NCBI RefSeq assembly: GCF_018861125.1 | Contig: NZ_JAHKQN010000015.1 | Span: 62,001-126,000, forward strand | Length of the DNA stretch: 64,000 nt | Source: Cellulophaga baltica | Lineage (GTDB): Bacteria > Bacteroidota > Bacteroidia > Flavobacteriales > Flavobacteriaceae | Direction: 5' to 3' | Shown here: in pieces, positions 28,136 through 29,860 of the stretch | Layout: every line of letters starts with the position of its first letter | Position numbering within the stretch: position 1 is the stretch's first letter | Notes under the pieces: generated by a model | Told to the model about the DNA's origin: nothing | Seen by the model: the letters and a program-made list of their open reading frames with translations, nothing else | Database searches by the model: none | Program-made: the position numbers and the translations under genes

Positions 28136-28203
28136 TGCCTCTAATTAAATTTAGCTGTTAATAAGTCTTAAAATATTTAACTTGTAATAATTCCATTAAA
28201 TAG

Positions 28204-28238
28204 GAATATATCCATACTTTTGTAATATGGATATATTC
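28204..28238 (+). promoter_or_regulatory. Operator-like 13-bp inverted repeat over umuD promoter and start codon
   Basis: GAATATATCCATA (28204-28216) is the exact reverse complement of TATGGATATATTC (28226-28238), with a 9-nt spacer. The -7 box TACTTTTG (28215-28222) spans the spacer, and the umuD ATG (28227-28229) is inside the right arm. No TTG lies at a proper distance upstream. The arrangement is what a repressor (or activator) site controlling an SOS-like operon would look like. The binding protein is unknown. Confidence 0.7.
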
Positions 28239-28595
28239 TCACATGGTAAATTAAAGAGGGTAGAGAAAAAACACGCTTTTGAAGTGTCAAAGCAAGTGGG
28301 TTTTCCTAGTCCTGCTACACATTATTTAGAACCCAGTATTAGCTTAGACCAAGAACTTATTGGTAATAGTGATGCTACATTTTATGTGCGTATTGAGGGT
28401 GATGCACTATCAGAATTTAATATTTTAGAAAACGATGTTTTAATTATAGATCGTTCTCTTGCAGTAAAAGAGAATGATTTGGCTATGGTTGTAACTGATG
28501 GTGAATTCAAAGTTATTAGAGTAGCATCAAAAGAACACCAAAACGAATTTGCCTTATGGGGAGTTATTAAATATATAATTCATGCCTGTAAATGA
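28227..28595 (+). CDS. umuD: UmuD-like protein lacking the self-cleavage dyad
   Basis: A 122-aa UmuD homologue, collinear with E. coli Umu[12 protein letters not shown] at 23-33, FYVRIEGD at 52-59, and DGEFKVIRV at 91-99. In active UmuD, RecA-stimulated autocleavage between residues 24 and 25 uses Ser60 and Lys97. Here position 60 is Ala (EGDALSE), position 97 is Ile (EFKVIRV), and the cleavage pair is Val24-Gly25 rather than Cys-Gly. The fold seems intact but self-cleavage should be impossible. It overlaps umuC by 4 bases (ATGA) and so is its likely partner. The -7 box ends four bases before the ATG, implying a leaderless mRNA. Confidence 0.88.
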
Positions 28596-29860
28596 TAGCG
28601 TTAATAGATTGTAATAGCTTTTATGCTTCGTGTGAGTTAGTTTTTCGCCCTGATTTGGCAGGAAGGCCTGTCGTGGTATTGAGTAATAATGACGGTTGTA
28701 TTATTGCAGCAAATAAAGAGGCAAAGGCATTAACTCATATTCCTATGTTTGAGCCTGTTTTTAAAATTAAAAAGCAACTTTTAGAGCATAATGTAGTTTT
28801 CTTCTCGTCAAATTATACATTGTATGGTGAAATGTCTAAAAGGGTGATTAACATATTAAAAACCTTTTCTCCTCGGGTGGAAATTTATAGTATAGATGAA
28901 TCTTTTTTAGATTTAAGTACTATTCCTGAAGAATCTTTAGAAGCGTACTCACACTTAATTAAAGACACCATTTTTAAACATACAGGTTTGCCAGTAGGTG
29001 TAGGGGTTGCAAAAACAAAAGTATTATCTAAACTAGCAAATAGAATAGCTAAAAAAGTAGAAACAAATAATCATGTGTGCATTATTAATACCGAAAAACA
29101 AAGAATAGAAGCCTTGAAATGGTGTGCTATTAAAGATGTTTGGGGTGTTGGTAGAAAACATAGTGAACGTATATTAAAGATAGGAGCAGCTAGTGCTTAT
29201 GATTTTACAAAAGTGCCATTGGCTTGGGTGCGCAAAGAAATGACTGTAGTAGGTGAGCGTACTTGGCGAGAACTCCGTGGAGAACCTGCGATGGAGTTTG
29301 TTGTGAATGTAAAAAAGAAAAAAGCCATTGGCACGGCAAAATCTTTTGGTAAAAAATTAAAAAACTTAGATATAATTGAAGAAGCTTGCTCGTATTATGT
29401 GGGTGAGGTTACTGAAGTTTTGCGAGCGCAACAATCTTGCGCAAGTGCAATTAATGTTTCAATCACAACAAATTATCACAGCAACAGAGATAAGCAGTAC
29501 TCTAATAGTATAACGGTTCAGTTAAATACACCTACAAACGATACTTTTTTGTTAATTAAAGAAGCAAAAAAAGCATTGCATCTTATATATAGGTCTGGTT
29601 ATGTATATAAAAAGGTAGGAGTAAACTTATTAGGTATCATTCCTGAGGACTATGTGCAAGCCAATTTATTTGAAGCGCCATCAGCATCAAAAAGCAAATT
29701 GACTAAAGTGGTAGATAGTTTAAATATAAAATATGGAAAGTCAAAAGTGTCATCAGCCTTAGTAGGTACACGTATAAAAGAGTGGGAACTTATTAAGGAA
29801 GAACGAAGTCCGAGATATACCACACAGTGGAAGGAACTACTTATTTTAAAAAGTAAGTAA
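28592..29860 (+). CDS. umuC: Y-family translesion DNA polymerase (Pol V catalytic subunit type)
   Basis: A 422-aa Y-family polymerase. Catalytic motifs [11 protein letters not shown] (Asp6) and [11 protein letters not shown] (Asp102, Glu103) are intact. [13 protein letters not shown] and the little-finger region follow. The beta-clamp binding motif QANLF is at 356-360, and the C-terminal ~50 residues ([20 protein letters not shown]...) are the DUF4113 tail of UmuC proteins. It bypasses DNA damage at stalled replication forks. It is translationally coupled to the UmuD homologue and shares its promoter. Its length equals that of E. coli UmuC (422). Confidence 0.95.

Follow-up and report, generated by a model that had tools for sequence, protein, structure and literature searches.

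An umuDC-type operon lies on the forward strand of the 64-kb window (the whole stretch of DNA that was analysed) and is composed of two genes that overlap by 4 nt: umuD* (28227..28595, + strand), encoding a UmuD homologue of 122 amino acids, and umuC (28592..29860, + strand), encoding a Y-family polymerase of 422 amino acids that matches the IMS, IMS_C and DUF4113 profiles. The polymerase gene is intact, as a sequence-only reading of this DNA had stated, and residues D6 and D102-E103 of its product are present. Upstream of the operon, an SOS box of the form GGA-N5-TCC, GGAATATATCC (28203..28213, + strand), is positioned 13 nt 5′ of the umuD* start codon and is followed by a TAnnTTTG promoter-like element, TACTTTTG (28215..28222, + strand), the end of which is 4 nt 5′ of the umuD* ATG.

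The umuD* product aligns without gaps over residues 18–99 with E. coli UmuD (phmmer, E 9.8e-15 against 8gmt, a reference entry that carries an altered Lys97), and is also matched to UmuD′ (1umu, E 2.2e-13). The alignment bears out both the collinearity with E. coli UmuD and the three substitutions that the sequence-only reading had pointed to: Ser60 is replaced by Ala and Lys97 by Ile, and the cleavage junction reads Val24-Gly25. The S24 family profile PF00717 (Peptidase_S24) is matched with 38.9 bits, above the cut-off of 23.3, and the scores against two NCBIfam models, NF007621 (autoproteolytic UmuD; 87.3 bits) and NF051876 (HumD; 59.4 bits), are below the respective cut-offs of 110 and 120 bits.

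In an AF2 model of the protein, determined with middling confidence (mean pLDDT 72.3; residues 1–40 averaging 44–55), a strand formed by residues 93–98 is followed by a strand at residues 109–118, and the C-terminal hairpin is absent. In the control model, built for an ordinary UmuD (mean pLDDT 69.0), strands are formed by residues 98–107, 110–114 and 131–141. Because both models are of middling confidence, the modelled arms were set aside as evidence. A Foldseek comparison of the UmuD* model with the PDB gave the UmuD′ folds 1ay9 and 1umu as best matches, with TM-scores near 0.5 and an rmsd near 9.

The UmuD* subfamily and its diagnostic residues

The window protein is a member of a conserved UmuD subfamily, here named UmuD*, which is larger than first noted. 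Profile searches of 100 related genomes and 397 sampled genomes of Flavobacteriaceae, the family of the window's genome, yielded 44 distinct UmuD* proteins, 119–126 amino acids long, from 44 carrier genomes belonging to 28 genera of this family. These were derived from 52 locus matches scoring above 130 bits, the 8 matches left out being the same gene refetched or the protein that is identical in G005 and G017. Scores in the 397-genome sample split cleanly: 39 genomes contain 40 nearly full-length matches of at least 141.7 bits, and the match ranked below these has 90 bits. A 45th short member (L087), which begins with GTG and by eye contains Ser60 and Asn97 and no dyad, came to light later and is kept outside the set of 44.

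The comparison set is a non-random sample of 60 ordinary UmuDs from the same order. It is made up of 21 proteins from the best-scoring loci of related genomes plus L078, including three from other families of the order (L020, L027 and L036), and of 39 further proteins, which were taken from 40 places in the upper part of the 397-genome listing and the carriers' second matches after leaving out L110. The latter, from a genome (G420) that also carries UmuD*, is a 340-residue S24 protein in which Ser and Lys are intact and whose long N-terminal extension resembles a helix-turn-helix repressor.

Comparison of columns 60 and 97 across flavobacterial UmuD-like proteins, a check that the sequence-only reading had proposed, showed that the Ser60–Lys97 dyad is present in 0/44 UmuD* proteins and in 60/60 ordinary UmuDs. 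Column 60 of UmuD* is occupied by Gly (11), Glu (9), Ala (9), Ser (9), Asn (2), Thr (2), Asp (1) or Lys (1), and column 97 by Ile (20), Leu (5), Lys (4), Gln (4), Val (3), Ala (2), Met (2), Glu (2), Arg (1) or His (1); wherever one residue of the dyad survives, its partner is lost. Sequencing error, which the same reading had named as a possible refutation, is excluded for practical purposes, because an 86%-identical copy in an uncultured Cellulophaga record is likewise without the dyad and none of the 44 relatives combines Ser60 with Lys97.

The search for a shifted dyad, the other refutation considered at the outset, identified no column with Lys in at least 80% of the 44 UmuD* proteins. Lys95, located two residues ahead of column 97, could face the same side of the strand; it is present in 22/44 proteins, only 3 of which contain Ser60.

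The cleavage junction (residues 24–25) is Thr-Gly in 41 of the 44 UmuD* proteins, Val-Gly in 2 and Ser-Gly in 1, so the Val-Gly of the window protein is a minority form; in the ordinary UmuDs it is Ala-Gly in 59 and Cys-Gly in 1. Gly25 itself is found in 44/44 UmuD* proteins and Phe26 in 43/44. Judged by these residues and by the missing dyad, it is near certain that UmuD* cannot cleave itself.

The arm that precedes the junction is retained, running from the likely start codon to Gly25 in 44/44 UmuD* proteins, so that the N-terminus is not at residue 25 as in UmuD′. Its composition is altered: columns 17, 18 and 22 are jointly hydrophobic in 0/44 UmuD* proteins compared with 60/60 ordinary UmuDs, and taken singly are hydrophobic in 16, 19 and 1 of the 44, respectively. 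The window protein retains Ala17 and Phe18, its sole departure in these columns being Lys at position 22. From the junction onward, residues G25, S28, A30, T31, H32, Y33 and E35 are invariant across the 44 proteins, with Thr-His-Tyr at residues 31–33 (44/44) taking the place of the Asp/Glu-Asp-Phe/Tyr of ordinary UmuDs. At the other end of the protein, UmuD* is without approximately 18 residues of the hairpin present in ordinary UmuDs, the gap lying shortly past column 97. The earlier statement that the rest of the fold is well kept is corrected accordingly, with respect to both the C-terminal hairpin and the arm.

Partner polymerase, operon layout and SOS control

The umuD* gene is the cistron immediately 5′ of umuC in 44/44 loci, the umuC start codon being positioned −10 to +1 nt from the umuD* stop codon (−4 in 37 loci), and the same gene order is found in L087. 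Among the 18 ordinary loci with umuC in the flank, umuC comes first in 15 and umuD first in 3, the latter being the loci from other families of the order (L020, L027 and L036). In L087 (genome G1037), two short open reading frames (L087:1877-2430), which resemble a YefM–YoeB toxin–antitoxin pair, separate umuD* from umuC, placing umuC approximately 590 nt downstream. In L038 (2708-2980) and L073, an open reading frame of approximately 90 codons is inserted between tandem SOS boxes and umuD*; it may constitute a third operon gene, and that of L038 gave no Pfam match. A further locus, L040 (G000:C10:20000-24000), contains a second Y-family polymerase (Pfam IMS) directly followed by an open reading frame that is DnaE-like by eye, the same layout as that of the PolY2–DnaE2 pair of Cellulophaga algicola described in the available text of PMC6511836.

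The UmuC tree was calculated without the UmuD* partner of L050, which is truncated by a contig end, and without three ordinary loci lacking a whole umuC in the flank. Partner UmuCs of UmuD* occupy one side of a branch (43 versus 18 rows) with a support of 99/100. Residues D6, D102 and E103 are kept in 43/43 partner UmuCs. Nearly fixed differences at other positions distinguish the two groups, among them A40 in 41, N41 in 43 and F53 in 41 of the 43 partners, as opposed to R40 in 18/18, S41 in 18/18 and G53 in 17/18 UmuCs of ordinary operons. Residues 31–33 of UmuD* and residues 40, 41 and 53 of UmuC possibly form a co-adapted contact, as suggested by these paired differences.

SOS genes of Flavobacteriaceae are governed via GGA-N5-TCC by a family of S24–HTH repressors, according to the accessible part of PMC8565304. 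The motif GGAWWWWWTCC occurs once in the window, at 28203–28213, immediately 5′ of umuD*. Since 44/100 shuffled windows contain at least one such motif, its count alone means little, and its weight derives from placement and conservation. An exact GGA-N5-TCC is located within 120 nt 5′ of umuD* in 34/44 members, 26 of which have tandem boxes (spacing of 19 in 19 members, 22 in 6 and 18 in 1), against a background of 0.4% in shuffled upstream DNA and of 62 among 1266 stretches of 120 nt from these loci, the umuD* sites counted in. Among the ten members without a box at this distance, four have one at −164 to −328. No box was found within 120 nt of umuC in the 13 readable ordinary umuC–umuD operons (14 tried). 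The gene for an XRE-S24 repressor in the window's genome (L001) is preceded by three GGA-N5-TCC boxes, and its product matches HTH_3 and S24 and contains, by eye, GDSM and the following Lys. Control of the umuD*C operon by the SOS system is suggested by the box upstream.

The TAnnTTTG element, presumably a promoter consensus, ends 3–5 nt before the umuD* ATG in 31/44 members (exactly 4 nt in 28), compared with a shuffle rate of 2%, and the SOS box lies 0–1 nt ahead of it in 27 members. Owing to this position just before the ATG, the umuD*C transcript may be leaderless or nearly so.

Selection, distribution and other UmuDs in carrier genomes

Codon comparisons indicate that umuD* is under purifying selection and is not a relic, in line with the earlier view that the pair is not simply decaying. 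Of 13 umuD* pairs compared, one was saturated and 12 were usable, 3 of them with dS above 1.5, making the ratios rough; dN/dS was 0 to 0.15 in 11 pairs, and 0.40 in the twelfth, in which dS was just 0.05. The partner umuC genes gave dN/dS values of 0.03–0.13. Loss of umuD*C does occur, as shown by a congener (G010, L039:2070-2640) in which the operon is reduced to a broken remnant, flanked by a serine dehydratase-like gene and dnaK. The 18 genomes of the window's genus comprise 7 with the short form, 6 with the ordinary form, 1 with the remnant, 4 with neither and 0 with both.

Searches at E ≤ 1e-30 matched 3/395 genomes of a phylum sample and 8/395 genomes of an order sample, the window's own being among them, and all of the matching genomes are within the window's family. 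The absence of UmuD* outside the family is only suggested by these samples, the family make-up of which is partly visible. Viral contigs searched with two short peptide patterns gave 11 pattern matches, none of which was confirmed as a relative. All matches listed from plasmid records (the best 15 of 88) and from phage records (the best 15 of 46) have less than 60% identity.

A second, active umuD was sought in the window's genome (99.48% complete, 36 contigs) by profile search, and none was found. PF00717 has three matches there, namely umuD*, as the single UmuD match, the XRE-S24 repressor L001 and L003. The last was rejected as a second UmuD, its match of 12.8 bits being weak and below the cut-off; the product of this open reading frame resembles an AraC-type regulator.

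Within the 397-genome sample, 33/39 carriers are without canonical UmuD and 31 had a single match, which speaks against the earlier proposal that the protein needs another UmuD copy. The remaining 6/39 carriers also hold an ordinary UmuD (confirmed by sequence in five, and in G147 judged from score and length), and other second matches in carriers are the 340-residue S24 protein of G420 and a second short copy in G017. A UmuD match (E ≤ 1e-4, mostly uninspected) was obtained in 185/358 non-carriers compared with the 6/39 carriers, so that the short and ordinary forms avoid each other (Fisher p 1.3e-5, relatedness not corrected).

Proposed action of the uncut subunit

In the textbook scheme, Pol V mutagenesis is delayed until late in the SOS response by the RecA-driven cleavage of UmuD. 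Because the parts for self-cutting have been lost, the E. coli-style activating cut is probably unused in UmuD* carriers. We favour, with a probability of roughly 0.6, the interpretation that these operons encode a Pol V lineage without the self-cleavage timer and dependent on SOS transcription, in which uncut UmuD* would serve as a UmuD′-like subunit. Of the three roles that the sequence-only reading had offered, activation of UmuC without cleavage is thereby the best supported; the activation itself, like the UmuD′-like action of UmuD*, is what we infer from the sequences.

The operon would be silent until the XRE-S24-type SOS repressor, whose own dyad is intact, is removed upon DNA damage, and UmuD* would then be produced together with UmuC, binding it directly as the small subunit. 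The uncut GF-x-S-x-ATHY-x-E stretch would fill the UmuC cleft that is taken by the N-terminus of UmuD′ in the published Pol V model, being free without cutting because the arm would have stopped docking on its own globular domain. Timing of the polymerase would be set at the level of transcription, with a possible contribution from the binding of RecA to UmuC, rather than by RecA-induced cleavage of UmuD.

A precedent is provided by the engineered E. coli variant UmuD3A (T14A L17A F18A), which, as described in the accessible portion of PMC5342242, is uncleaved yet UmuD′-like because its arm hardly docks. UmuD3A resembles UmuD* in its uncleaved, full-length arm with weakened docking, and columns 17 and 18, altered in the UmuD* family, are two of its three positions; it is a laboratory mutant altered at three arm residues only, whereas UmuD* occurs naturally, with the dyad, the junction residue and the hairpin lost in addition. 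AlphaFold models reported in the available text of PMC12926913 and PMC11791011 show the arms of UmuD′ and of the UmuD analogue YqjX entering the polymerase. YqjX/YolD, the partner of the Gram-positive YqjW/UvrX, is comparable to UmuD* as a small protein encoded with an SOS-induced Y-family polymerase (PMC6511836, PMC12926913, both in part), and the modelled position of its arm within the polymerase (PMC12926913) corresponds to that proposed for UmuD*. According to the part of PMC6511836 available, YqjX/YolD is unrelated to UmuD by sequence search, whereas UmuD* derives from a real UmuD.

A more specific version, put forward tentatively, is that of a Flavobacteriaceae branch of Pol V without a cleavage timer, in which the uncut, longer arm would be threaded into a co-adapted UmuC and the mutasome would therefore become active directly upon translation from an SOS operon that is under tight repression and probably leaderless. 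The elements of the longer arm are the nearly invariant Q-T-G-F followed by S-x-ATHY-x-E; the co-adapted UmuC would contribute A40-N41 and F53, where the UmuC of a cleavable partner has R40-S41 and G53.

Several observations weigh against this interpretation. Approximately 24 residues precede the stretch that corresponds to the UmuD′ N-terminus, and a free N-terminus may be required there. Ten of the 44 members have no exact box within 120 nt, and the window protein itself departs from the hydrophobic arm set at column 22 alone. Non-cleavable S60A forms are poorly mutagenic in E. coli (PMC5342242, in the text available), so loss of cleavage alone does not yield UmuD′, and on this ground a locked complex is conceivable, in which UmuD* would hold UmuC in an uncut UmuD2C-like state acting in a damage-induced checkpoint or in accurate bypass instead of as a mutagenic polymerase. 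Such a state would be consistent with the retention of the arm ahead of Gly25 in 44/44 proteins and with the checkpoint role of intact E. coli UmuD and UmuC described in the accessible part of PMC3901139. We nevertheless consider it unlikely, as the hydrophobic arm set of cleavable relatives is kept in none of the 44 proteins, so that UmuD* is not expected to adopt the arms-down conformation of uncut UmuD, and UmuC retains its catalytic acids and evolves under constraint.

Less likely still is that another protein cuts UmuD* in trans and so turns it into an ordinary UmuD′, the candidates being the XRE-S24 repressor, canonical UmuD and a housekeeping protease. The preserved Gly25 (44/44) and Phe26 (43/44), the intact dyad seen by eye in the S24 repressor of the window's genome and the presence of canonical UmuD in 6/39 carriers would allow for it, but the residue on the N-terminal side of the junction is Thr in 41/44 UmuD* proteins as against Ala or Cys in 60/60 ordinary UmuDs, 33/39 carriers lack a canonical UmuD, and short and ordinary forms tend to exclude each other (6/39 versus 185/358, p 1.3e-5, kinship uncorrected).

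Loss of catalysis is common among proteins that have turned into regulators, and UmuD* could by analogy be a regulator or antagonist, as the sequence-only reading had also offered, for example one that sequesters UmuC or RecA and is not a working subunit. This is very unlikely, because umuD* directly precedes umuC in 44/44 loci, and in 33/39 genomes no second UmuD for it to oppose was found. That the gene is in decay, or that self-cleavage persists through a displaced Ser/Lys pair, is largely refuted: the broken operon of G010 and Lys95 (22/44, 3 with Ser60) are outweighed by dN/dS values of 0–0.15 in 11/12 usable pairs, by the lack of a family Lys column at 80% and by the junction, which is altered too.

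The closest known systems include UmuD/UmuD′ of DNA polymerase V (NF007621; PF00717, S24), with which UmuD* shares the gapless alignment over residues 18–99, the UmuD′ fold as best structural match and the linkage to umuC, and from which it differs in the missing Ser–Lys dyad, the Thr/Val-Gly junction, the lost hairpin and the altered arm. The UmuD′-like HumD (NF051876), the profile of which matches 44/44 UmuD* proteins at E ≤ 0.001 with the window protein below its cut-off (59.4 versus 120 bits), presumably corresponds to a ready-cut UmuD′ and retains the dyad. UmuDAb of Acinetobacter, which resembles UmuD* as a UmuD homologue put to other use, is cleaved. It represses genes via an N-terminal domain, as stated in the available portion of PMC4807011, whereas UmuD* has just approximately 24 residues before Gly25. 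No description of the UmuD* subfamily was found in one open-access library, supplements lying outside the search.

With UmuD* and UmuC kept under selection without the cleavage machinery, the family would allow one to ask directly whether the polymerase requires the cut or whether cutting is only one option for its timing, and UmuD*–UmuC would offer a natural uncut mutasome for structural studies.
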